Shown piece by piece: positions 4,119 through 21,737 of a stretch of 64,000 nucleotides of DNA. The position numbers were made by a program, and so were the translations under genes. The DNA is from Actinoplanes derwentensis (lineage in GTDB: Bacteria; Actinomycetota; Actinomycetes; Mycobacteriales; Micromonosporaceae). The stretch spans positions 9,758,001 to 9,822,000 of the forward strand of contig NZ_LT629758.1 in the NCBI RefSeq assembly GCF_900104725.1, in the 5' to 3' direction. Below the pieces are notes generated by a model. The model was not told the DNA's origin. It saw nothing but the letters and a program-made list of their open reading frames with translations, and ran no database searches. The first letter of the stretch is position 1, and every line of letters begins with the position of its first letter.

Positions 4119-4262
4119 GCGAGTGCCGGGTGAATCGGTAGGCGGGGGCCCGTACTGACGGAGGCCTTTCCCCTCGTGGGGGATGGTCCGGCGAATCGAC
4201 AGTGTTTACGGTGATTGAGCACTGAACGAGCGCTTTCCGCCTATGCGCTGCGGGAGTCTGTC

Positions 4263-5150
4263 ATGTCTGTTTTCCGTGGAGCCGCCAGCGAACCCACCTC
4301 CCGCCGTCCGGCACCTCAGCGACATCCCACTACGCCCAGCCAGTGGGCTCCGCCACGAGCTCCTGGGCCGGCCTATGCCGAGGGCCCGACTGAACCGCTC
4401 GGCGCAGCCAGGGAATCCGCTGGGGCGCCCCGGAAACCTGCCTGGGACGCTGAGGAACCCACCGCCGCAGCCAGGGAATCAGCCGCCGGGGCCCGTTCCG
4501 CTATCGAGCCACGAGCAGTGACCGAGTCGCCGGCCGTCTTCGGGAAAAGCCCGGTCAAGCCTCGTAGGGCCCGTCGTGGGGTGGCCGTCGCCGTGGTCTT
4601 CAGTCTTCTCGCGTTCGCTGTCGCGGCGGGCGCGGGATTCCTCTCCTGGCGGACCTTCGAAACGGTCGACGGGCTCGGCCCGCTTCCGTTGGTCACGGCG
4701 GTGCCGTCACGGGAAGCGGCCACCCGGCCCCGACCGCTGGATCCGGTCCGATATCCGGTCTCGTACGCCAAGGAACCGCTCCGTCTCGACCTGGCCTGCG
4801 CGGCCGTGATCCATCTGGATCTCGATGAGCCGCGCGCCGACGTGGCCGAGAGCCTGGCCGACCTCAGGTACGAGAGTCGCTGTGGCGCCGAACCGCCGAA
4901 ACTGAGCCTGGGTGCCGGTGCGGCGGCCGGAAGCCGGCAGGTCAGCGCCGACAGCGACGCGGCCGGATGCGACCGGGCCATCCGGACCGGTCCGCTCGGC
5001 CGAGGGCTGCAGATCGAGGTCAAGAGTGGCTCGGCTCTCTGCGTCCTCACCGCGGCGACACCGGCCGAACTGGTCCTCGTGGAGGTCATCGACGTCGGCG
5101 GCTCCGGCACCGCCGGCCTGCGCGCCACTTCGTGGCAGGTGCCGAAGTAG
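4263..5150 (+). CDS. Single-pass membrane protein with Pro/Ala-rich cytoplasmic tail
   Basis: 295 aa, family not recognised. Residues 1-100 are Pro/Ala/Glu-rich and probably disordered. A basic patch (KPRRARRGV) precedes one membrane helix (VAVAVVFSLLAFAVAAGAGF), giving N-in topology. The remaining about 175 residues, outside the cell, contain four cysteines (LACAAV, SRCGAE, AGCDRA, ALCVLT) that could form two disulfides. ATG at 4263 has GGGAG eight nt upstream; a TTG at 4215 would add 16 residues without a good ribosome-binding site. It is monocistronic and lies before aspS. The architecture (disordered inside, one helix, small Cys-containing outside domain) parallels the giant protein at 9615. 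Confidence 0.7.
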   Translation: MSVFRGAASEPTSRRPAPQRHPTTPSQWAPPRAPGPAYAEGPTEPLGAARESAGAPRKPAWDAEEPTAAARESAAGARSAIEPRAVTESPAVFGKSPVKPRRARRGVAVAVVFSLLAFAVAAGAGFLSWRTFETVDGLGPLPLVTAVPSREAATRPRPLDPVRYPVSYAKEPLRLDLACAAVIHLDLDEPRADVAESLADLRYESRCGAEPPKLSLGAGAAAGSRQVSADSDAAGCDRAIRTGPLGRGLQIEVKSGSALCVLTAATPAELVLVEVIDVGGSGTAGLRATSWQVPK

Positions 5151-7430: not shown

Positions 7431-7702
7431 TCGGAGCGGCCCCCGGCCGCCAGCCCTCCGGCTACTCCGGCCCGTCTGCCCCCAGACGGGCCGGAGCCGT
7501 GTCCGGGGACGATCCGCCGGCTCGTGATCTCGTTGATGTGTGCCCGTTCGTCGATCGGTTCCTGGTGCAGGCGAGCCTCAGGACAGAGACGCCGGCATGT
7601 GGCGGTGATCGATGGGAACACACTCGGTGAGTCCGTCGTGGCTGCTCGGGAGGTTGTCCACAGGTCGGTAGGTGGCGTTTCGGATCGGGTCGGTTCGGCC
7701 GG

Positions 7703-7708
7703 TACTGT
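7703..7708 (+). promoter_or_regulatory. Candidate -10 box (TACTGT) for leaderless rarA
   Basis: TACTGT ends 8 nt before the rarA ATG at 7717 and there is no Shine-Dalgarno sequence in between, so the mRNA probably begins at or beside the start codon. No clear -35 element is visible. Confidence 0.4.
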
Positions 7709-7716
7709 CGGTTCTG

Positions 7717-9618
7717 ATGGAAACGGATGGGCTCTTCTCCCTCACGCCGCCGGACGCGCGGACCACGGAACCGGCTGGTGCCGGCACCGCTGGATTCGGG
7801 CGTCCCGCCGGTGACGCGCCGCTTCCGGTGCGCATGCGGCCAGCCTCGCTGGACGAGCTGATCGGGCAGGGGCACCTGCTGGCGCCCGGCGCCCCGTTGC
7901 GCCAGCTGGTCACCGGTGCCAGCCCGATGTCGGTGATCCTGTGGGGGCCGCCCGGCACCGGCAAGACCACCATCGCGCACCTCGTCGCCAACGCGACGGA
8001 CCGCAAGTTCGTCGCCATGTCCGCGCTGACCGCAGGTGTCAAGGACGTGCGCGCGGTGATCGACACGGCGCGCCGGGAGCGGCGTTACGGCGGACCGCCG
8101 ACCGTGCTGTTCATCGATGAGGTCCACCGTTTCAGCAAGACTCAGCAGGATTCGCTGCTCGCCGCGGTCGAGGACCGGACGGTCACCCTGCTCGCGGCGA
8201 CCACCGAGAACCCCTACTTCTCGGTCATTTCGCCCCTGCTCTCCCGCTGTGTGCTGCTGACTCTTCAGCCCCTCGACGAGGACGACGTCCGCCGTCTCCT
8301 CCGCCGCGCGGTCACCGACGAGCGCGGGCTGGGCGGTTCGGTCACGCTCACCCCGCAGGCCGAGGAGCATCTGGTGCGCCTGGCGTCCGGTGACGTCCGC
8401 AAAGCTCTGACCGCGCTGGAGGCCGCAGCCGGTTCGGCGCTCGCACAGGACGTCGCGGAGATCGACCTCTCCACCGCCGAGAAGGCGGTCGACGTGGCGG
8501 CGGTCCGTTACGACCGCGACGGCGACGCGCACTACGACATCATCAGCGCGTTCATCAAGAGCATGCGCGGCAGCGATCCCGACGCGGCCCTGCATTACCT
8601 GGCCCGGATGCTGGTCGCGGGCGAGGACCCGCGGTTCCTCGCCCGGCGCATCGTCATCTTCGCCAGTGAGGACATCGGGATGGCCGATCCGCAGGCGCTG
8701 CTGGTGGCGACCGCGGCGGCCCAGGCGGTGCAGAACGTGGGGCTTCCCGAAGCCGGACTCAATCTCGCGCACGCGGTGGTGCACCTGGCCACCGCGCCCA
8801 AGTCGAACAGTGTCACCGTCGCCCTCGGCGAGGCGATGGCCGACGTCCGGGCCGGGCGAGGCGGGCCGGTCCCGTCGCACCTGCGGGATGGGCACTATCC
8901 GGGTTCGCGGGGGCTCGGGCACGGAATCGGCTATCGCTACCCGCACGACGATTCGCGAGGTGTGGTCCGCCAGCAGTACGTTCCGGACGATCTTGTCGGT
9001 ACCGACTACTATCGCCCGACCGATCACGGTGCCGAGCGGGCGGTGGCCGAGCGGGTGCCGCGACTCCGGCGGATCGTGCGGGGTCTCGGCCCGGCGGCCC
9101 GGCCGCCCGCTGGTGACGTCTCGGAAGGGCGGCGAGTGACTACGGGTGGCCCACAGGTAGCGCGTGGTGATCATTCGGATGGATCTTCCGAGACTGCCGA
9201 GAAAGCGAATTCCGGCGCGCTGAGCAGCGCGAATGACGATTCGGTGTCAGTCGCGGACCCCGTGGTGGGTGGTGCTTCAGGCTCGGATGAGTCACAGTTT
9301 TCGGCGGACTCCGAACCGGAAAACGCGAAGACGACTTCGGTGCGTCACATAACTGTGGCGGAAAGTGTTGAAGTCGCTGGCGGTAACGATCCAGATCCAG
9401 CGGACGGAACCGATGATCCCGGTTCCCCGCCGGGGAAGAGACCACCCGGGAGAAAACGGCCCGGGAACAAGCAGTCCGGGAGTGAACCGGCCGGGAGCGC
9501 GACAACCGGAGCCCGGCCGGCCGAGGACGAGCCGGACGGACGAGGTTCGGCTGAGGCAGCAGGCCGGAACGCGAGTGTTGACGACAGCGGCGACAGTGCC
9601 GGGAAGGAACAGCGGTGA
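7717..9618 (+). CDS. rarA: Replication-associated recombination protein A (RarA/MgsA) with long C-terminal extension
   Basis: 633 aa. AAA+ ATPase acting at stalled replication forks. Walker [10 protein letters not shown] (77-85), Walker B VLFIDE (130-135) and the sensor-1 region TTENPYF are intact, followed by the MgsA C-terminal tetramerisation domain with the conserved [11 protein letters not shown] segment. Family members usually end near residue 450-470. Here about 160 further residues (from roughly 474) are Ser/Asp/Glu/Gly/Pro-rich and low in complexity, including [13 protein letters not shown]. The DNA for the start of this tail (about 9160-9400) is less GC-rich than the surrounding genes. 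The stop overlaps the GTG of the giant downstream gene (GTGA), so the two are coupled. ATG 7717 fits a leaderless promoter. Confidence 0.93.
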
Positions 9619-12600
9619 CAGGGCGGGGTGCCGATCGACCCGACGACGAGACGGGTCCGCGCGACGAGCAGGGCGGGAAGAACCGCCGGCGCTTCGGGCG
9701 TGGAGGCCGTGCCGAGCAGCCGGTTGTTCCCCAGGAGGTCTCCGGCGAGGAGGTCGGCTGGCTCGATGACCTACGGACGGCCAAGCAGGACCGCAGCGCC
9801 ATCGGCCCGGGGACCTTCCCCGGTGAGGGGCGGATCAGCAAGTCCGGGCGGATGGCTCCCGGCCCTGACGACGTTCCCGACGACGACTTCGCGTTCCCCG
9901 GCGAGCCGGGCGACGACTTCGACGAGCCCGCGGCCCAGCGGGAGCCTCGCGGTGGCCAGCCTGATTCCGGACAGGTGAGTCCGGGCCCGGCGCCCCGGGG
10001 AGCGGCCGGTCCGGCCGGTCCGCCCGGCCAGCGTCCCGGTCCGGCTGGACCTATGGGTCCGGGCCAGCGCCCGGGAGCGGGACCGTCGGGTCCGGTCTCG
10101 CCCGGCGCGGGCCAGCGTGGGGCCGCCGGTGTGCCCGGACAGATGCCGCCGGGTCAGATGCCGGCAGGTCAGATGCCGCCGCCGGGGCAGCGGTCCGGTG
10201 CGATGCCGCACGGCCAACTTCCGCCCGGCGTGGTCGGTCCCGGCCAGGCGCCGTCGGGGCCCGTCCCTTCCGGTCAGCTCCCACCCGGCGGTGCGCCGGC
10301 TGGTCAGATGCCGCCCGGACAGGGCCAGTTCGATCCGGCGGGCCGCGGACGCCGTGGCCCGGGCCCGGCCGGACAGCGCCCTCCCACCGGTCAGATGCCA
10401 CCTGGCCAGATGCCTCCCGGTCAGGGCGGTCCTGTTCAGGGCGGCCCTGGTCAGATGCCGCAAGGACCGGGCGGACCCGGCCAGATGATGCAAGGACCGG
10501 GCGGACCTGGTCAGATGCCGAATGGGCCCAGCGGTCCCGGTCCGGTGGCGCAGGGTCAGGGCCGACCCGGCCAGATGTCCCAGGGTGGACCCGGTCAGAT
10601 GCAGCCGGGTCCCGGCGGACCCGGTCAGATGCAGCCGGGTCCCGGTGGGCCTGGTCAGATGCCGCAGGGCGGGCCGCCCGGTATGGGCGCGGGGCAGATG
10701 CCGCCCGGCGCGCGCCGGGCAGGCCCGCAGCCGGGCGGTCGTGCGCAGGTCGGTCAGGAGCCGGGCAGTGGGCGCCGCCAGATCGACGCGGACCTCTCCG
10801 GGCAGATGTTCCCCGGACAACCCCCAGCTTCTGGTACGGCGGTCCCGCTCTCCGGCAACGCCCCGGAGATCCCGGCGCCCCGCCCCGGGACACCCGCTGC
10901 TCGCGGTGCCGCTTCCGGGGTCCGCCCGGTGTCGCCGGGTCAGCGTTCGGCGGGTCCCGGTATTCGGCCGACCTCACCGGCCGGTCCCGCGCGAGACCGT
11001 TTCCGTCCCGCGGACCCGGTCTCGGGTGGTCCTGACGCGGCGCACCGTTCCGGCCCCATCCCGCGTGGCTTCGACGAGGTGCACCAGTCCGGTCCGATCC
11101 CGAACGCCTATGACGCTGTACATCAGTCGGGCCCCATCCCGCGTGGTTACGACGAGGTCAATCAGTCCGGGCCGATTCCGCGTGGCTTCGACGAGGTGCA
11201 CCAGTCGGGGCCGATTCCGCGTGGCTATGACGAGGTCCATCAGTCCGGGCCTATCCCGAACGCCTATGACGAGGTTCACCAGTCCGGCCCGATACCGAGC
11301 GGGTATGACGAGATCCACCAGTCGGGGGCGATCCCGAACGGGTATGACCAAGGCCGGAGCTATGGGAGCGCGGCGCCGACGTCGCCGGGTGCGGTCGGCG
11401 AACAGCCTGGCCGGGGACGGAAGCGGCGGGCGCGTGCCGAAGAAGGCGTAGCCGAGGAGCGAACCGGACGCCATGGGCGGGCCGGGCAGCCGGACCCGGA
11501 GGGCGACTTCGGCCACCGGGCCGACCAGGACGCGCCGGGAGACGAGGGCTCGGGCCGGCACGGTGCTTCGTGGGCCGCCACCGGTACCGGCTCGCACGCC
11601 GCCTTCCCCCGGACTGGCTCCGAGACCGGTTCGCACGCGTTCGTACAGACCGGCAGCGAGACCGGAAGCCACGGTGTGATCCGTCGCGGCGACGAGCAGT
11701 CGCCCGCTGACGGATGGCCCGGAGCGGACGGGCAGTCCGGAGAGGCGCGTTCGCCGGGCGAGTCGCGCCGTCGCCGGAACGCGCGTCGAGGTGAAGACCC
11801 GGACGAGCCTGAGATCGGCGGATTCACCGGCACGCCGGACGTTCCCGGCCCGCGCCGCATCGGCCCTGGTGACGGGCGTCCGGTGCGAGCAGCGGCGGTT
11901 GTCCCGCCGGTGGTCCCGGGTCGGCAGGGTGCCCGTACCCCCGCAGTCCCCGGTCGTGCCGGAGCCATGGCCGACAGTACCTCCGGAATCATCCAGCGCC
12001 CCGGAACCGGGCGTGTCCAGCGCGGACCGGGAGTCCCGCCACAGACCGGCGAGGACCGCACCTCCGGCGCCGGTGTCTCGGTTCCGGAACAGGCCGGACC
12101 CGGCCGCCGAGCGGCCCGAGCGGATGGTCCGGGCCGTGGGGATGGTTCGGGGCGAGCGGATGGTCCGGGTGGCGTGCAAGCCGCCGGAGCCTTCCCGGCT
12201 GACGGCGAGGAGCACACCGGACGGCACAGCGGGGTACGGCCGGACGCCCCCGGGATGGCCCGGGCCGGAGCGGCAGCGCCCGTCTCCGGCAACGGTCCCG
12301 CCCAGCAGATGGGGCCCGGCCGAGCCGTGGCCGGTCAGCCCGGCCACGGTGGAATGCCGCCCAACGGGCCTGGCGGAATGCCGTCTAACGGCCCGGGTGC
12401 GATGCCGCCCACCGGTCCTGTCGGCCTGCCCGGGAACGGTCCCGGCGGCCCTGGTGGTCCTGGCGGTATTTCTGCGGGTGGCCCTGGTGGGATGGCTCCT
12501 GGCGGTCCCGACGGTGGTCCTGCCCGTGGCGGAGCTCAGGTACCGGGCCGAGGCCCGGTGCGGGGTGGCGCGGCGGTGCCCGGACGTGGGCCGGATGGAA

Positions 12601-14930
12601 CGAATCCGGCCGCCATGGGTGCGGTCGCCCCCGGCCGGGGACGACCCGGACGGGGCCCGGGGGGCACTGACAACGGCCCCGCAGGTCTGAACGGCCCGGA
12701 TGGCGGCACCGGTGTGGTGTCGCGGCACGGTAGGCCTGGACCGGACGGCGGTCCGGCCGACCGGGATGGCGGGACCGCTGCGGTCTCGCGTCGCGGGATG
12801 CCGGGGCCGGAGAGTGGTACCGGTGCGGTGTCGCGTCATCAGCGGCCCGGCCCGGACGACGATGTGACCGGGATGGCCGGGCGTGGCGCGGCTGGTTCGG
12901 GCGATGGGCCCGGACGTGCGGGCGCCGGGCCCGACGGTGGACCCAACGGTCCGCAGAGGCGTAGTGGACCGGGCCGTCGTGGCGCCGGTCCCGGAAATGG
13001 ACCGTCCGGGGCGCCGCCTCGTGGAGCTGACGGTTCGCGGGCGACGGGCGGTGCGCCGGTACCGGGACAGGGCCTGGACGGCCCGTCGCGGGCGATGGGC
13101 GGAGCCGCTGTACCGGGCCGCGCCGGGATGGGGCCTGACGGCTCGCCGCAGGGGGCACATGCCGGCAACGGCCCGGACGGACCGTCCCGTGCCATGGGTG
13201 GCGCGTCGATCCCCGGCCAGGGGCCGGACGGCCCTTCGCGGGCGATGGGCGGTGCCTCGGTTCCCGGTCAGGGGCCGGACGCATTCTCGCGTGCCTTGGG
13301 TGGCGCGCCGGTTCCCGGACCGGGACCGGACGGCCCTTCTCGGGCGATGGGCGGCGCTGCCGTTCCCGGACGGGCTATGCCCGGACCGGACGCCGGCGAG
13401 GGTCGGCCGATGGGCCCGGGGCCGAGAGACGGCATGGGCCCGGGAGGGCCTGGTCCACGCGACGGTATGGGTGCGGGTTCGCGTTCCGGGATGGGACCAG
13501 GCGGTCCCGGTGCCCGCGACGGGATGGGTCCTGGCGGCCCCGGTCAGCGTGACGGCGGCGGTCCGGCCAGTGGCATGGGCCCTGGTGGTCCTGGTTCGCG
13601 TGAGGGCAGAGGGCCCGGTGGTCCTGGGCATCGGGACGGGACGGGGCCTGTCCGGGGCGGTGCGGTGGTGCCCGGGCGGGCTGTTGGAGGGCCTGACGGT
13701 GGTTCTGGGCAGGCTACGGGTTCGGTGATGCCGGGCGGGGCGGCGATGGGTGCTGCCTCCGTCGGTGCGGCTCCGGCCGGGTCGGCTTCGGTGGGTTCCG
13801 CTTCGGTGGGTTCCGCTTCGGTCGGGGCTGCCGCGGTGGGCGGTGCCTCGGTCGGTGCTGCCTCTGTGGGAATGGGCGCCGGGCGAGGTGGTCCTGAACG
13901 GACGGACGGGCGGCCGGGCGCGGGACGGGCCGGGGTCGCTGGTGGGCCGGGTGCCGGGTCCGGAGCAGGGCTGGGCGGTAACGGCAGCGGCGGCTCGAAC
14001 GGCGTCGGTGATGGCCCTGACGGCGGCGTCGGCACTAACAGCGGCGGCAATGGCGGCAACGGCCCGAACCGGGGCAATGGCCCGAACGGCGGCAGCGGCG
14101 GTGGCCCTAACACCGGCGGTCCGAACGGCGGCGTCGGTGGGAACGGCAGTGGTGGTGGGAGTGGCCGGGCGGGTGCCGGTGGTGTTCGCGGTGGGGCTTC
14201 GGTCGTACCGGCGGCGGGGTTTGATCCTCGGGTGGAACCGGCGGCGGACTCGGCGGATGAGAAGGCTGAGGGTGGTCTGGCTGAGCTGCGCCGCAAGATG
14301 CGGACTCAGCGGCGGCTGCGGCTGGTGACGTTGATCTCGCTCGCCGCGATGGTGCTGCTGGTGCTGCCGGTTTTCTTCGGGGTTCGGGCGATGAGTACCG
14401 ACCCGGTCTTCGCCTCGCTGGACCGGTTGCAGGTGGACAGCTGGGCGGAGACCGCGCCGCCGAAGGATCAGGAGTTCGGCAGCGCCCTGTGCATCGAGGA
14501 GTGTTCGTTCCGGGAGCGGGAGGCCGCGTCGGATCGGCCGTTCCCGGAGACGGCCACCGAATATTCGGAGGCGCTGTCCAAGGCGGGCTGGACGCAGTGG
14601 AAGGCGGCGGCCTGTGAGAAGCCGGCCCGCCCGGAGGAGGAGAGTCACAGCTGCTGGCGGCTGGACGAGCTGACTCTGGATCTCTTCGTGGGCCTGCCGG
14701 GGTGTGCGGTGGACCAGTTCGCGGCCGAGTTGAACCCGCTGGCCGCCGAGGAACCGGTGGAACCGCAGGAGCCGGGGGAGTGCGCCGGGTCGTCGGTGCG
14801 GATCAAGGTGCAGAACACGATCGTCGACACTCGGGGCAAGACGGACACCGCTCCGGGGCCGCTGGGGGAGACGCCGGACACCGTGTTGCCGGACACGGAT
14901 TCCATCTTCCCGACACCCCAGGCGTCCTGA
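9615..14930 (+). CDS. Giant Gly/Pro-rich repeat protein with one C-terminal membrane helix and Cys-containing outer domain
   Basis: 1771 aa, function unknown. Order: an acidic/basic N-terminus (1-115) with a non-repetitive motif [20 protein letters not shown]; collagen-like GQMPPG repeats (about 175-365); eight 13-residue repeats (477-580); TGSETGSH repeats; a long GP/GGPG region with [12 protein letters not shown] units; SVGSA pentapeptides; and an Asn/Gly-rich stretch. Then come a basic segment ([11 protein letters not shown]), one membrane helix at about 1570-1590 ([20 protein letters not shown]), and an about 180-residue outer domain with six cysteines (CIEEC, AAC, HSC, PGC, GEC). With no signal peptide and basic residues before the helix, the repeats should be cytoplasmic (N-in). 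GTG 9615 overlaps the rarA stop and has AGGAAC upstream. The continuous frame over 5.3 kb, the in-frame repeats and the folded-looking ends argue that it is real. Confidence 0.82.
10137..10710 (+). repeat. Collagen-like GQMPPG repeat region inside the giant gene
   Basis: In-frame degenerate hexapeptide repeats built on [16 protein letters not shown] and close variants. At DNA level they recur as GGTCAGATGCC-like units. Gly recurs frequently but not strictly every third residue, so a true collagen triple helix is not established. Confidence 0.85.
11043..11354 (+). repeat. Eight 39-bp tandem repeats (13-aa units)
   Basis: Eight consecutive 13-residue units with consensus [13 protein letters not shown]: the variable slots are R/N/S at position 8, G/A at 9 and F/Y at 10, and the last unit degenerates to [13 protein letters not shown]. 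All are in frame with no indels. Synonymous codons vary between copies, so selection on the protein rather than very recent amplification is likely. Confidence 0.92.
13071..13383 (+). repeat. [12 protein letters not shown](S/A)VPG(Q/R) repeats inside the giant gene
   Basis: Five recognisable copies of a 17-20 residue unit with core GPSRAMGGA followed by VPG or IPG; one copy is diverged ([14 protein letters not shown]) and one interruption carries a different spacer ([11 protein letters not shown]). Confidence 0.8.
13749..13871 (+). repeat. Pentapeptide (G-S/A-A-S-V) repeats inside the giant gene
   Basis: Eight consecutive five-residue units of the type [10 protein letters not shown], in frame, encoded by near-identical 15-nt blocks around TCGGTGGGTTCCGCT. 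Length variation by slippage would preserve the frame. Confidence 0.85.
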
Positions 14931-15010: not shown

Positions 15011-15460
15011 ATGAATGCCGGAGATATCGCAGGCCTTGTCGCGGCGGGCGCCTTCCTCATGCTCGTTCTGGTGCTGGCAGTGCCGATCCTCAAGCTGGGG
15101 CGCACCATCGACGCCACGACCAACGCGATCAACGACGTGGTCGACCGGACCGGGCCGCTGCTCACCAACGTGAATCACACGGTGGAGAACGTGAACGTGG
15201 CGTTGAGCCAGGTGCAGGTCTCTTTGGACGGTGTGAACGTGCAGCTGGCCAAGGTCGACACGATGACCGAGCACGCGCAGAACGTGTCGGCGAACATCGC
15301 GAACCTGGTCACCGTCGTGTCGGCGGCTGCCGCGAACCCGCTGGTCAAGGTCGCTTCGTTCGGGTACGGCCTGCGTAAGGCCGCGAACGCGCGCCGCAGT
15401 GCCGAGGACGAGCGTGAGGTCCGTGCCTCGATCAAGCAGCGCCGCAAGGCCGCCCGCTGA
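15011..15460 (+). CDS. DUF948-containing membrane protein
   Basis: 149 aa. One N-terminal helix (IAGLVAAGAFLMLVLVLAVPIL) is followed by an amphipathic region rich in Val/Asn/Asp (TTNAINDVVDRT, VENVNVALSQVQVSLDGVNVQL), typical of the chemotaxis-receptor-like coiled-coil of DUF948, and a basic C-terminus (KQRRKAAR). It is a membrane-anchored cytoplasmic or cell-wall-side coiled coil of unknown function. ATG 15011 has TAGGAGA upstream. It lies between the giant gene and a small DUF6167-type gene, just before alaS, a conserved actinobacterial position. Confidence 0.88.
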   Translation: MNAGDIAGLVAAGAFLMLVLVLAVPILKLGRTIDATTNAINDVVDRTGPLLTNVNHTVENVNVALSQVQVSLDGVNVQLAKVDTMTEHAQNVSANIANLVTVVSAAAANPLVKVASFGYGLRKAANARRSAEDEREVRASIKQRRKAAR

Positions 15461-15496: not shown

Positions 15497-15787
15497 ATGA
15501 AGCGTCTGCTGTGGCTCGGTGTCGGCTTGGCCGTCGGCGCCCTGGTCGTCCGCAAGCTGAACCAGAAGGCCAACGAGTTCACCCCCACGGGCATCGCCAC
15601 CTCGCTGTCGGAATCCGCTGGCGGCCTCGTCGAGTCGGTGCGTAACTTCGTGGAAGACGTCCGCGAGGGGATGACCGAGCGGGAGCAGCAGATCCACGAG
15701 GCCTTCGCCGCGGGTGAGCTGTACGAGGACAAGTTCGCCGAGTTGCGTGACGATGCGCAGCCCGGATCGCAGGAGGAGAACCGATGA
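15497..15787 (+). CDS. DUF6167-like small protein
   Basis: 96 aa. A short hydrophobic N-terminus ([20 protein letters not shown]) precedes a helical, charged region ([31 protein letters not shown]). This is the small protein typically found between the DUF948 gene and alaS in actinobacteria; I assign the family from memory of that context and the N-terminal pattern. Its stop overlaps the alaS start (ATGA), indicating translational coupling. Function unknown. Confidence 0.78.
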
Positions 15788-18465
15788 AAACGGCGGAGAT
15801 CAAGCGGCGCTATCTGGCGCATTTCGAGGCGAACGGCCATACGGTCGTCCCGAGCGCTCCGCTGCCCGCTATCGACGACCCGAACCTGCTGTTCATCAAC
15901 GCCGGCATGGTGCAGTTCGTGCCGTACTTCCTGGGTCAGCAGACCCCGCCATTCAACCGGGCGGTCAGCGTCCAGAAGTGCATCCGGACGCCGGACATCG
16001 ACGAGGTCGGCAAGACCAGCCGGCACGGCACGTTCTTCCAGATGAACGGCAACTTCTCGTTCGGTGACTACTTCAAGGAAGGCGCGATCAAGCTCGCCTG
16101 GGATCTGTCGACGAAGTCGGTGGCCGACGGCGGTTTCGGGCTGGACCCGTCGCGGATCTGGCCGACCGTCTACCTGGACGACGACGAGGCGTTCGAGTTG
16201 TGGCGCGGGATCGGTGTGCCGGACGAGCACATCGTGCGCCGGGGCAAGAAGGACAACTACTGGTCGATGGGCATTCCCGGCCCGGCCGGCCCGTGTTCGG
16301 AGCTGTTCTACGACCGTGGCCCGGAGTACGGCAAGGACGGCGGCCCCGAGGTCGACGAGGACCGGTTCATGGAGTTCTGGAACCTGGTCTTCATGCAGTA
16401 CGAGATCACCGATGTGAAGTCGAAGGAGGACTTCACGATCGTCGGTGACCTGCCGAAGCAGAACATCGACACCGGCATGGGCCTGGAGCGCATCGCGTCG
16501 ATCCTGCAGGGTGTCGACAACCTGTACGAGATCGACGAGGTCCGCCCGATCCTGGCCCGTGCGGCCGAGATGACCGGTAAGAACTACGGCGCCAACTCGG
16601 GCCACGTCGCGGGCGAGTCGCACCCCGACGACGTCCGCCTGCGGGTGATCGCCGACCACGTGCGGACCGCGCTGATGCTGATCGGCGACGGTGTGGTGCC
16701 GGCGAACGACGGCCGTGGTTACGTGCTGCGCCGCATCATGCGCCGGGCGATCCGGTCGATCCGGCTGCTGGGCTGGCAGGAGCCGGCGCTGCCGATCCTG
16801 CTGCCGATCGCGCGGGACTGCATGTCCCCGTCGTACCCGGAGCTGGCGTCGGACTTCGAGCGGATCTCCACGTACGCGTACGCGGAGGAGGACGCGTTCC
16901 TCTCCACGCTGAAGTCGGGCACCACGATCCTGGACACGGCGATCATCGACACCAAGAGCGGTGGACGGACGCAGCTCAGCGGGGACAAGGCGTTCCAGCT
17001 GCACGACACGTACGGCTTCCCGATCGACCTGACCCTGGAGATCGCGCAGGAGCAGGGCCTGGAGGTCGACCAGGAGGGTTTCCGGCGGCTGATGGCCGAC
17101 CAGCGGAACCGGGCGAAGGCGGACGCGGCGGCGCGCAAGACGGGTCACGCCGACCTGTCCGCGTACCGTTCGGCGCTGGACTCCGGCGGCGCGGTCGAGT
17201 TCACCGGCTACCAGGAGATCACCCGGGAGTCGCGGGTCCGGGCGCTGATCGGCGCGAGTGGCCGGATCGAGGTGGCCGGTGAGGGTGACTTCGTCGAGCT
17301 GGTCCTGGACACCACCCCGTTCTACGCCGAGGGCGGTGGCCAGCAGGCCGACAACGGCGTGATCAACGTCGGCGGCGGCCGGCTGGAGATCGTCGACGTG
17401 CAACAGCCGTTGCCGGGCCTGATCGTGCACAAGGCGCGGGTGGTCCGGGGTGAGGTGCGCGCGGGTGAGACGGCGCTCGCCGAGATCGACGTGACCCGCC
17501 GTAAGGCGATCTCCCGGTCGCACACCGCGACCCACCTGGTGCACCAGACGATGCGCAACTTCCTCGGTGAGTCGGCGACCCAGGCGGGTTCGCTGAACGC
17601 TCCGGGCCGGCTGCGGTTCGACTTCCACACCCCGGGCGCGGTCAGCCCGTCGGTGCTGTTCGACGTCGAGCAGCAGATCAACGAGGTGCTGCTGCGTGAC
17701 CTGGAGGTCACCGCGTTCACCACCTCGCAGGCGGAGGCGCGGCGGCTGGGCGCGATGGCGCTGTTCGGCGAGAAGTACGGCGACGAGGTCCGGGTCGTCG
17801 AGGTCGGTGACTACGCGCGGGAGCTGTGCGGTGGCACCCACGTGGCCCGTTCGGGTCAGCTGGGCCTCGTGAAGATCCTCAACGAGCAGTCGATCGGTTC
17901 CGGCGTACGCCGCGTGGAGGCCCTGGTGGGTCTGGACGCGTTCAGCTTCCTGGCCAAGGAGCACCTGCTGGTGTCGCGTCTGGCGGACCTGTTCCGGGTG
18001 CCCGGCGACCAGGTGGCCGACCGGGTCGAGCAGACCGTCACGGCGCTGCGCGACGCGGAGAAGGAACTGGAGAAGATGCGGGCGCAGATGGTCCTGGGCG
18101 GGGCGGGCGCGCTCGCCGGCCAGGCCAAGGACGTGCGCGGTGTCGCCTACGTGGGCACCGAGGCGCCGGAGGGTGCGGCCGGCAACGACGTGCGCACGCT
18201 CGCGCAGGAGATCCGCGGCAAGATCGACGCCGCTCGTCCGGCGGTCGTCGCGGTGACCGCGCGGGCCAACGGCAAGGCCTCGCTGATCGTGGCGATCAAC
18301 GCGGCGGCCAAGAGCCGTGGTGTCTCCGCGCAGGATCTGGTGAAGGCGGCGCTGTCCGGCCGGGGTGGCGGTAACGCCGATCTGGCGCAGGGTGGTGGTG
18401 TCCCGGCGGAGCAGGCGCCGGTGCTGCTCGCCGCGATCGAGAAAGCGATTGCCGACCTGGCATGA
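15784..18465 (+). CDS. alaS: Alanine--tRNA ligase
   Basis: 893 aa class II synthetase. The catalytic core begins with [18 protein letters not shown] and includes [10 protein letters not shown] and [22 protein letters not shown]. The editing domain has the zinc-binding residues His580 and His584 ([11 protein letters not shown]) and Cys682/His686 (CGGTHV), so mischarged Ser-/Gly-tRNA-Ala can be hydrolysed in cis. The C-Ala domain ends with [14 protein letters not shown], which binds the tRNA elbow. Full length for the family. ATG 15784 overlaps the previous stop. Confidence 0.98.
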
Positions 18466-18722: not shown

Positions 18723-19202
18723 GTGCAGGTTGAAGGCGTGACTCAAGACTTCGCTCGGGGCGTCCGCCTGGGGGTGGACGTGGGGCAGGTGCGTGTCGGG
18801 GTGGCCAGGTGCGACCCGGACGGCATTCTGGCCAGCCCGGTGGTGACCGTGCCTCGGGACCGGGAGACCGGTGACGACGGCACGCCGAAGGACATGACGG
18901 AGCTGGCCCGGTTGATCGCCGAGTTCGAGGCGGTCGAGGTCGTGGTGGGGCTGCCGGTGGCGCTCAACGGGCGTGAGGGTGTGGCCGCCGGCCACATCCG
19001 GGCGTACGTGGAGCGGCTCGGTGCCGTGATCGCGCCGATTCCGGTGCAGCTGACCGACGAGCGGATGTCGACCGTCGTGGCCAGTCGCCGTTTGTCCGAG
19101 CGTGGTGTCAGAGGCAAGCGCCAGCGTGCGGTCGTCGACCAGGCGGCGGCCGTGGAGATCCTGCAGAGCTGGCTCAACGCGCAGCGGAGGCAGACTAATT
19201 GA
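18723..19202 (+). CDS. ruvX: Holliday junction resolvase-like RNase H-fold protein RuvX (YqgF)
   Basis: 159 aa. RNase H-like fold with the first catalytic Asp in RLGVDVGQVRVGVA, the Glu in the VVVGLPVALNGREG strand, and DERMSTVVASR with a final Asp in KRQRAVVDQAAAVEIL. Family members process pre-16S rRNA 5' ends and can act on Holliday junctions. The start is uncertain: GTG 18723 gives the longest plausible product, while GTG 18738 would drop five residues; neither has an ideal ribosome-binding site. The last codons overlap the TTG of the first mltG. alaS-ruvX-mltG-aroE order is the standard actinobacterial arrangement. Confidence 0.93.
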   Translation: MQVEGVTQDFARGVRLGVDVGQVRVGVARCDPDGILASPVVTVPRDRETGDDGTPKDMTELARLIAEFEAVEVVVGLPVALNGREGVAAGHIRAYVERLGAVIAPIPVQLTDERMSTVVASRRLSERGVRGKRQRAVVDQAAAVEILQSWLNAQRRQTN

Positions 19203-20380
19203 TCGGCGAGATGGAAGATCTCAGGTTCGAGGACAACCCGGATCCCGGGCGATGGCGACATCGCAAGCGGGAGGGATCCGGTCGGTCCGTCGTGGCGTTC
19301 GTCCTGGTACTGCTGCTGTTCGGCGTCCTCGGCGGCGGTGCCTGGTACGGCTATGACAGATTCTCCGGTTACTTCCTCGCCGCGGACTACGACGGTCCCG
19401 GCAGTGGTGAAGTGGTCGTCGAGGTCAAACCGGGTGACGGTGGCTCCGCGATCGGGGCGACCCTGGAGGCGGCCGGGGTGGTGAAGAGCGCCCGGGCTTT
19501 CGTCAACGCTGCGAACGATAATTCCGACAGTACGGGCATTCAAGTCGGATCGTACAAGCTCCGCAAAGAGATGAAGGCCAGCGACGCGGTGCTGGCGCTG
19601 CTGGACCGCAAGAACATGACGATCAACGGGGTGACCATCCCCGAGGGCTGGACCAAGATGCAGGTCTTCGAGGAGTTCTCGAAGAAGACCGGCATCAAGT
19701 ACGCGGAGTTCGAGAACGCCGCCAAGGACATCTCGAAGCTCGGTGTCACCGCCGAGTGGCTCAAGCGCACTGACGGCAAGAAGGTCGACAAGTCCAACAT
19801 CGAGGGCTTCCTGTACCCGGCGACCTACGAACTCCCGGACGACCCGAACGCCACCGACATCCTCAAGGCGATGATCAAGAACTTCAACGCCGAGATGGAC
19901 AAGCTGAACTTCGCGGCAACCGTCAAGGAGAAGTACAACATCTCGCCGTACGAGGCCCTGGTCGCGGCGTCGATCACCCAGGTCGAGGCGCTGCTGCCGG
20001 AGGACATGGGCCCGGTCTCCCGGGTGCTCTACAACCGGGCGTACTCCGGCGACTTCCCGTGCGGCTGCCTCCAGCTGGACAGCACCGTCAACTACTGGTT
20101 GCGGCTTCAGGGCAAGGAGGGCAAGTCCTCCGAGAAGCTCACGATCGACGAGTTGCACGGCGAGGCGAACCCGTACCGGTACAACGCTCCGGGCATGTCG
20201 ATCGGCCCGATCAGCAACCCGGGTGACATCGCTCTGAAGGGTGCTCTCAACGCCAAGAAGAGCCCGTACTTCTTCTTCGTGACAGTCGACGCGAAGGGCC
20301 GCATGGCGTACGGCAAGACCTTTGCCCAGCACCAGGCAAACATCCAGGTGGCGTGCAAGAACGGCATCCCGATCTGCTGA
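19199..20380 (+). CDS. mltG: Endolytic murein transglycosylase MltG, copy 1
   Basis: 393 aa. Cleaves nascent peptidoglycan strands, terminating glycan synthesis at the membrane. A short acidic cytoplasmic N-terminus is followed by one helix (VVAFVLVLLLFGVLGGGAW, about residues 32-50) and the extracytoplasmic YceG domain. The conserved Glu263 lies in AASITQVEALLPED. Cysteines occur at DFPCGCLQ and VACKNGIPIC. TTG at 19199 is chosen because it lies 8 nt after GGAGG and because the second copy at 20556 starts in exactly the same context and aligns from its first residue; ATG 19211 is an alternative. It overlaps ruvX by 4 nt. Confidence 0.92.
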   Translation: MIGEMEDLRFEDNPDPGRWRHRKREGSGRSVVAFVLVLLLFGVLGGGAWYGYDRFSGYFLAADYDGPGSGEVVVEVKPGDGGSAIGATLEAAGVVKSARAFVNAANDNSDSTGIQVGSYKLRKEMKASDAVLALLDRKNMTINGVTIPEGWTKMQVFEEFSKKTGIKYAEFENAAKDISKLGVTAEWLKRTDGKKVDKSNIEGFLYPATYELPDDPNATDILKAMIKNFNAEMDKLNFAATVKEKYNISPYEALVAASITQVEALLPEDMGPVSRVLYNRAYSGDFPCGCLQLDSTVNYWLRLQGKEGKSSEKLTIDELHGEANPYRYNAPGMSIGPISNPGDIALKGALNAKKSPYFFFVTVDAKGRMAYGKTFAQHQANIQVACKNGIPIC

Positions 20381-20555: not shown

Positions 20556-21737
20556 ATGATCGATGAACTGGACGTGGCGTTCGAAGAGGACGCCGAACCG
20601 AGCGGATCGGACCTGCGGCGCCGCTCCGGAAAAGGTGCCGGCAAGTCCGCGATCGCCCTGTTCATGACCCTTCTGTTGTTCGGTGTCCTGGGCGGTGGCG
20701 TCTATTTCGGCTACACCAAGGTGGCCGACCTCTTCATCGCGGCCGACTACGACGGGTCCGGCAGTGACCCGATCGAGGTGACGATCGCCAAGAACTCCTC
20801 CCTCACCGAGATCGGCAACAAGCTCGTCGAGGTGGATGTGGTGAAGAGCACCAAGGCGTTCCTCAACGCCGCCGAGGCCGAGCCACGCAGCAAGAACATC
20901 CAATCCGGGACGTACGTGCTGCGCCGCCAGATGTCCGCCGCGCAGGCCGTGACCCAGCTCCTCGATCCGAACACCCGGCTCAGCAAGGGTGTGACCATCC
21001 CCGAGGGCAAGACCGCCAAGCAGACGTACGAGCTGCTCGCGAAGGCCACCGGCATCCCGGTCAAGCAGTTCCAGGAGGCCGCAAAGGATCCCGAGGCGCT
21101 CGGCGTGCCGGACTGGTGGTTCAAGCGCGACGACAAGAAGCCGGTGTCCAAGACCGCCGAGGGTTTCCTCTTCCCGGACACCTACGAGCTCGACCCGAAG
21201 GCGAACGCCACCCAGGTGCTGCGCACGATGGTGGAGCACTTCCTCACCGTCACCGGCGAGATCGGTTTCGCCGACGGAGTGCAGAAGAACCTGGGTGTCG
21301 CGCCGTACGAGGCTCTGATCGTGGCGTCACTGGCGCAGGCCGAGGCCGGTGTCCCCGCCGATCTGCCCAAGGTGGCCCGGGTCGCCTACAACCGGGCGTA
21401 CAAGAAGAAGATGCCGTTGCAGTTCGACGTCACCACGAACTACTGGCTGGAACTCAGCGGCAAGAAGGCCAAGCACTCCGGCAAGCTGACCGTGGCCGAG
21501 ATGACCGACCCGAAGAACCCGTACAACTCGGAGAACGTGATCGGCCTGCCGATCGGCCCGATCAACAGCCCCGGCAAGGCGGCCCTGAACGGTGCGATGA
21601 AGCCGCCGACCGCGTCCTGGCTGTTCTTCGTCGCGGTCGACAAGAAGGGCAACTCGGCGTTCGCCTCCACCGACACCGAGCACGAGAAGAACAAGAAGAA
21701 GGCGTGCGACAACGGGATTCCGCTGTCCGACTGCTGA
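20556..21737 (+). CDS. mltG: Endolytic murein transglycosylase MltG, copy 2 (tandem paralogue)
   Basis: 393 aa, the same length as the upstream copy, with the same layout: acidic N-terminus, one membrane helix (IALFMTLLLFGVLGGGVYFG) and YceG domain. The conserved Glu is again residue 263 (VASLAQAEAGVPAD), followed by PKVARVAYNRAYKKKMPLQFD, closer to the usual MltG pattern than copy 1. It ends KACDNGIPLSDC. A 15-nt sequence GCAGCGGAGGCAGAC upstream (20538-20552) is identical to the one before copy 1, including the ribosome-binding site at identical spacing, so the duplication included the 3' edge of ruvX. Both copies look intact, which suggests divided roles. Confidence 0.92.
   Translation: MIDELDVAFEEDAEPSGSDLRRRSGKGAGKSAIALFMTLLLFGVLGGGVYFGYTKVADLFIAADYDGSGSDPIEVTIAKNSSLTEIGNKLVEVDVVKSTKAFLNAAEAEPRSKNIQSGTYVLRRQMSAAQAVTQLLDPNTRLSKGVTIPEGKTAKQTYELLAKATGIPVKQFQEAAKDPEALGVPDWWFKRDDKKPVSKTAEGFLFPDTYELDPKANATQVLRTMVEHFLTVTGEIGFADGVQKNLGVAPYEALIVASLAQAEAGVPADLPKVARVAYNRAYKKKMPLQFDVTTNYWLELSGKKAKHSGKLTVAEMTDPKNPYNSENVIGLPIGPINSPGKAALNGAMKPPTASWLFFVAVDKKGNSAFASTDTEHEKNKKKACDNGIPLSDC

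Follow-up and report, generated by a model that had tools for sequence, protein, structure and literature searches.

Gene X is an open reading frame (ORF) of 1,771 codons in a 64,000-nucleotide stretch of the Actinoplanes derwentensis genome (GCF_900104725.1, contig NZ_LT629758.1, positions 9,758,001 to 9,822,000), hereafter the window, where it overlaps the end of the ATPase gene rarA. This frame is a real gene under protein-level purifying selection, and by our searches it defines a protein family without a Pfam or NCBIfam model. Our favoured reading, held at about even confidence, is that X is a membrane tether, with a flexible arm that displays short motifs for binding in the cytoplasm; the capture of a partner is suggested by the conservation of these motifs. 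The features of the gene, in window positions, were as follows.

9615 to 14930, plus strand: gene X, whole coding sequence, a 1771-codon ORF with a GTG start and no interruption
9602 to 9618, plus strand: ribosome-binding-like GGAAGGA (9602-9608) and the GTGA overlap of the rarA stop and the X start
9744 to 9812, plus strand: N-terminal motif (N-motif) of 23 residues, residues 44-66, from pattern counts, alignment and profile matches
9945 to 14279, plus strand: low-complexity Gly/Pro/Ala/Arg linker, residues 111-1555, from composition; ratio of nonsynonymous to synonymous substitution rates (dN/dS) 0.205 over residues 67-1545
10842 to 10868, plus strand: island 1, VPxSGNAPE[IV]P, with SGNAPE in 20 of 22 Actinoplanes and also in L078 of another genus
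10920 to 11006, plus strand: island 2, VRPVSP...PARDRFR, with VRPVSP in 17 of 22 and PARDRF in 17 of 22 Actinoplanes
11049 to 11348, plus strand: repeat array with a 39-nt unit, [FY] followed by 10 residues (Tandem Repeats Finder scores 282-348)
11844 to 12005, plus strand: island 3, 48 residues plus flank, with PPVVPG and GRAGAM in 22 of 22 Actinoplanes; from alignment
14286 to 14324, plus strand: basic juxtamembrane stretch of 13 residues beginning LRRKMR, residues 1558-1570, similar in relatives
14322 to 14393, plus strand: single transmembrane helix, ends approximate, from about residue 1570; from hydropathy and a helix in the AlphaFold2 model
14394 to 14927, plus strand: outer domain (head) with six cysteines and a tentative Mog1p/PsbP-like fold; from alignment, models and fold comparison

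A preliminary description, made from the letters of the window, had reported an uninterrupted 1771-residue frame at 9615-14930 overlapping rarA by GTGA, and direct reading of the ORF confirmed it. The comparisons with relatives used 62 loci that were hand-picked from the matches and not drawn at random (2 plus 20 from Actinoplanes and 40 from other genomes of the family). Starts, ribosome-binding sites and lengths were compared in 55 loci, namely 54 and the window, with L084, L085, L103 and L107 left out. The start of X was offset by -3 relative to the rarA stop in 47 of the 55 by the start rule used, and a Shine-Dalgarno-like tetramer lay within 22 nt of the start in 51 by a permissive test.

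Codon substitution was measured against the ortholog L057 (genome G055), whose C-terminal 201 residues are 87% identical to those of the window protein. Over the 1331 aligned codons of the linker the dN/dS was 0.205; the individual segments of X gave 0.14-0.24, the C-terminal part being at 0.238. In the two other sense frames the ratios were 2.6 and 1.9, and the antisense frames -0 and -2 gave 2.5 and 2.0, respectively. Antisense frame -1 had a ratio of 0.25, yet it contained 58 stops. The alignment of the window protein with L057 had 45 gap runs, which indicated that insertions and deletions alter the arm as well. The frame-by-frame ratios ruled out both that X is a spurious ORF and that a genuine antisense gene lies across it; the long ORF on the opposite strand showed no sign of protein-level selection and was judged spurious:

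10974 to 14648, minus strand: long antisense ORF, frame -0 (assigned by hand), ratio 2.47

An assembly artefact, which had been named as a possible source of the repeats, was also ruled out, since gene X is present in many independent genomes, several of them consisting of one contig. As for stops or frameshifts in relatives, one frame was kept in 55 of the 58 loci showing both rarA and the head.

The arm was described at first as a Gly/Pro/Ala-rich middle of about 1,450 residues, and this was borne out by residues 111-1555. Gly, Pro and Ala make up 56% of these 1,445 residues, which hold no cysteine, 21 aromatics, and 118 Arg against 2 Lys. They contain 30 RG pairs and 6 RGG, and their net charge is positive. 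The contour length is about 520 nm at 0.36 nm per residue. From this composition we infer that the arm is disordered and flexible. A collagen-like protein was ruled out, as the longest Gly-X-Y run had 9 triplets. The earlier view of the protein as almost wholly repetitive was overstated: tandem arrays covered 1256 of the 5316 nt of gene X (24%, by Tandem Repeats Finder, which copies less than about 70% alike escape), and there are also non-repetitive islands conserved throughout the genus. The HQSGPIP and GGAxVPG repeats were variable and missing from several Actinoplanes species, and the number of SGPIP copies ranged from 0 to 8 among 22 Actinoplanes.

The N-terminus was non-repetitive and conserved, as had been proposed, with a W[LI]xxL motif in 43 of 44 long in-frame versions. 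The pattern W[LIV][DAE][DEG]L[RKWQ] was found within the first 140 residues in 22 of 22 Actinoplanes and in 21 of 22 other long in-frame versions; this count leaves out L084, L085 and L103, which are out of frame, and eleven head-only versions that are too short to carry the motif. Its fuller form, GEExGW[LI]xDLRxAK, is looser in some versions and lies near the free end of the arm. With a profile of the Actinoplanes N-region, 17 of 37 proteins of other genera scored above 25 bits. In six genomes gene X was the sole strong match of the motif region, with no second strong copy. Among the islands, island 3 held all four 6-mers common to the linkers of 22 of 22 Actinoplanes (PGRAGA, PPVVPG, GRAGAM and RAGAMA), while the best 6-mer in five composition shuffles reached only 12 of 22. 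The PPVVPG of this island sits at residues 595-1071, depending on the species, L078 of another genus matched the island at 19 bits, and no second strong copy was found in 5 genomes. The profile search gave no convincing match of island 2 in other genera.

Hydropathy, composition and cysteine conservation supported the proposed single pass, with a basic stretch before the helix and a six-cysteine outer domain behind it. The cysteines of the window protein are at positions 1626, 1630, 1667, 1680, 1697 and 1723. Exactly six cysteines follow the helix in 59 of 60 tails, and L107 has ten. The outer-domain alignment A1 comprised 51 of 61 domains (60 loci and the window), and A2 was A1 with L155 added. 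One D, one P, five cysteines, two R, one T and one W were invariant in 51 of 51 aligned domains, and the sixth cysteine was present in at least 90%. The basic stretch and the cysteines point to a topology with the N-terminus inside and the C-terminus outside (N-in/C-out), and the outer domain is probably held by disulfides.

The impression that X belongs to no described family also stood. The window protein and its ends, searched separately, had no Pfam match (E 1) and no NCBIfam match, and so no known sequence family was found for either end. The 51 outer domains gave only stray matches to Pfam, the best at 0.0091, and the two short relatives L112 and L150 matched no Pfam family. In NCBIfam, judged by the curated cut-offs, there was no match for the window protein, its outer domain or L112, and one stray match for L150 (13.5 of 250 bits). 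The models tentatively suggest a Mog1p/PsbP-like fold for the outer domain. Its identity to proteins of this fold (DcrB, the Eag chaperones SciW and EagT6, PA94 and the N-domain of PA1624) was 5-13%, and Foldseek gave no match to the outer-domain model at E 0.001. Unlike these proteins, the outer domain of X has six conserved cysteines and follows a helix and a giant cytoplasmic arm.

The layout of arm, helix and six-cysteine head recurs in relatives, with great variation in length. The part before the membrane had 17-1,787 residues, with 17-48 in the eleven head-only versions and the maximum in Actinoplanes. Giant size as a fixed trait was thus not supported, as lengths differ about tenfold and eleven loci encode barely more than the head. 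The head-only orthologs of Stackebrandtia (L112) and Natronoglycomyces (L155) stand at the same locus with the entire outer domain, and they have neither arm nor N-motif. In Longispora, a short lipobox protein (L150:4940-5425, minus strand) replaces X at the rarA locus. It matched the outer-domain profile, in which L150 is not included, with a probability of 76% and E 2.3e-5. This protein shares part of the outer domain, has fewer cysteines and lacks the arm and the N-motif; its lipobox at the same locus fits an outer location of the domain. All three forms are annotated as "hypothetical protein". This natural series, which spans head-only proteins and arms of up to 1,787 residues, lends itself to studying the part that linker length and short motifs play in a membrane tether of bacteria.

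The length of X was also compared with that of the RarA tail, which beyond the matched core has 12-21 residues at head-only loci and reaches 224 in Actinoplanes. The two lengths were correlated (Spearman 0.86, n=55), both within Actinoplanes (0.68, n=22) and in the other genera (0.72, n=33). With independent contrasts, from which L079, L093 and L095 were also left out, the correlation was weak overall, at r=0.31 (p=0.025, n=51); it was clearer in Actinoplanes taken alone, where r=0.57 (p=0.005, n=22). The length of IF-2 served as a control, minus three fragment-like values. Its contrasts gave r=0.14 (p=0.35, n=46; Actinoplanes 0.24, p=0.31, n=20) with X and 0.07 (p=0.66; Actinoplanes 0.13, p=0.58) with the RarA tail. 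The co-variation of the RarA tail and X suggests a joint constraint. Near the end of RarA, a DDSG stretch in 22 Actinoplanes had no third-base variation in three of its four codons, and this conservation looks more like a nucleic-acid signal (DNA or RNA) ahead of X than like a peptide for binding. In B. subtilis, RarA has been described as active close to replication forks (PMC6374455). With synteny and the length co-variation behind it, RarA, which is made immediately ahead of X, is a candidate partner and no more. X and RarA might make up a system peculiar to the family, with RarA captured by the membrane-fixed arm via the N-motif, arm and RarA tail growing together, and fork repair done or stored at the membrane of these filamentous bacteria; this would be a long shot, and we give it little credence. 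The family raises the question whether filamentous actinobacteria have a partner for fork repair in the membrane.

The preliminary description had offered a tether, a scaffold or a spacer as the role of such a chain. A tether or spacer remains the best reading of the sequence evidence, while the low aromatic content is mildly against a phase-separating scaffold. In the tether reading, X would be a single-pass, N-in/C-out protein whose constant part is the compact outer head on one transmembrane helix. In most sampled genera the cytoplasmic N-terminus would have grown into an unstructured Gly/Pro/Ala/Arg arm, of about 1,450 residues here, which bears the N-motif near its free end and, in Actinoplanes, the three islands further along. 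Like a fishing line, the arm of membrane-fixed molecules could then catch a cytoplasmic partner with affinity for the motifs, or raise its local concentration, and the outer head would fix or sense the position in the envelope. The purifying selection in every segment and the conservation of the N-motif, the islands and the head argue for this reading, and the constant neighbours, the lipobox of the Longispora form and the co-variation with the RarA tail were also counted in its favour. Tethers of the ZipA/TonB type combine a membrane anchor, a flexible Pro-rich low-complexity linker and a partner-binding piece. X resembles them in its anchor (the helix) and its low-complexity, presumably flexible spacer. 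Unlike them, it has its free end at the cytoplasmic N-terminus, its folded domain outside and a very long, Gly-rich linker, and it shows no known folded partner-binding domain (no Pfam match anywhere, E 1).

Several results weigh against the tether. The eleven head-only versions (178-205 aa, and one of 296 aa with a longer C-terminus) lack arm and motif, and three family genomes, G121, G111 and G193, had no recognisable X in the interval (3 inspected of 12 unmatched). These indicate that relatives can do without X or its arm. The N-motif is absent from the long L092 and from the 410-aa L115, and the upstream part and the head of L084, L085 and L103 lie in different frames, through either sequencing error or real breakage. 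The linker is barely on the disordered side by charge-hydropathy (0.414, boundary 0.418). In addition, the contrast correlation with the RarA tail is weak, with r=0.30 (p=0.054, n=42) for the long versions only, and the length correlation could reflect regional mutation in adjacent DNA.

The next most likely explanation is mostly neutral growth, in which the head does the work and the GC-rich (guanine- and cytosine-rich) linker expands by slippage, tolerated because the tail matters little. The range of 17-1,787 residues before the membrane, repeat copy numbers that differ within one genus, the occurrence of head-only versions and a local GC content of 70-78% around the gene would all fit such growth, and the raw length of IF-2 tracks that of X (Spearman 0.73, n=46), a hint of a lineage-wide trend. 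It is a real rival, though we consider it less likely than the tether. Against it, the dN/dS of about 0.2 over the linker is as low as in the head, and the N-motif is kept over genera and the islands over the genus.

Two further explanations were weighed. Many arms might phase-separate at the membrane into a condensate scaffold that concentrates client proteins or nucleic acid, for which a long, low-complexity, Arg-rich linker with RG pairs and a positive net charge would be suitable. However, the few aromatics and RGG in the linker of the window protein, and islands that resemble specific motifs and not many equal stickers, make this improbable. Membrane anti-sigma and regulated-proteolysis systems work by release of an effector, and the outer domain of X could similarly sense the envelope, with cleavage or a shape change releasing a cytoplasmic effector peptide. 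The probable N-in/C-out layout, the cysteine-rich outer domain and the conserved cytoplasmic N-motif are compatible with such signalling, but hardly any cytoplasmic part is left in the head-only versions to pass on a signal, and no regulator was found among the Pfam-scanned neighbours (tRNA synthetases, RarA, DUF948, RuvX, YceG and AroE-like). We hold signalling to be improbable, and the least likely of the four explanations.

X defines a family without a Pfam or NCBIfam model, present at one locus in most sampled genomes of Micromonosporaceae, a family known for antibiotic producers, and annotators gain a domain and a motif to model. The C-terminal 201 residues matched 60 of 100 genomes, namely 60 of 60 of the genus and none of the 40 that represent the order's other families. 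Matches with a species name were A. siamensis and A. rectilineatus. In the family search (E 0.1), 138 of 150 Micromonosporaceae genomes from 40 of 44 genera were matched; this number includes the G139 match (E 0.042), which is not at the rarA locus and is probably spurious. Five further family matches had one stop within the aligned stretch. The order search (249 genomes) matched 42 family genomes strongly and 4 others weakly, and the class search (296 genomes) gave 3 family matches and 3 weak others; with 11 and 13 first-look candidates scored per genome, respectively, absence is not firm in either. Downstream of rarA, tblastn found no outer domain in 14 of 14 other-family genomes, a test in which the short gene of G113, although genuine, went undetected as well. 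Protein-database searches with the C- or N-terminal region returned no full-length ortholog among 670 and 138 candidates. The long X ORFs are missing from the protein database though many genomes encode one, and gene callers or filters may drop them. Titles and abstract openings of the papers listed for Actinoplanes, Micromonosporaceae, linkers and rarA did not mention the gene.

Two proteins away from the rarA locus were also noted. A 157-aa Cryptosporangium protein (L125:2953-3471, minus strand) carries a single helix and, much as in the outer domain, a C..C / AGW pattern; the profile comparison gave a probability of 5% and E 0.0076, and its matches in a further search came from a profile in which one copy of this protein was itself included. 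The match in G572 was lipoprotein-like, with no rarA or alaS within 6.5 kb.

The syntenic order around X was rarA, X, DUF948, DUF6167-like and alaS, and together with the GTGA overlap it supported the proposed coupling of X to rarA at the level of the gene. By tblastn over the 62 loci, rarA was found in 59, DUF948 in 60, DUF6167-like in 59 and alaS in 60; the three loci without rarA were two contig ends and the G139 locus. In the window these neighbours were:

7672 to 9618, plus strand: rarA (MgsA-type AAA+ ATPase), with a mostly low-complexity tail of about 188 residues beyond residue 460 (Pfam MgsA_C 2.2e-67)
15011 to 15460, plus strand: DUF948 gene (Pfam DUF948 4.4e-21)
15497 to 15787, plus strand: DUF6167-like gene (17.6 bits, under the Pfam cut-off of 27)
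15784 to 18465, plus strand: alaS (Pfam tRNA-synt_2c 5.2e-180)

Pfam also supported aspS, alaS, ruvX, the AroE-like gene and two YceG genes. Upstream of aspS, a 311-aa ORF (4215-5150) without a Pfam match reads as a second Pro/Ala-rich single-pass protein, with Cys after the helix. The YceG-like (MltG) genes stand in tandem at 19199-20380 and 20556-21737, between ruvX and the aroE-like gene.

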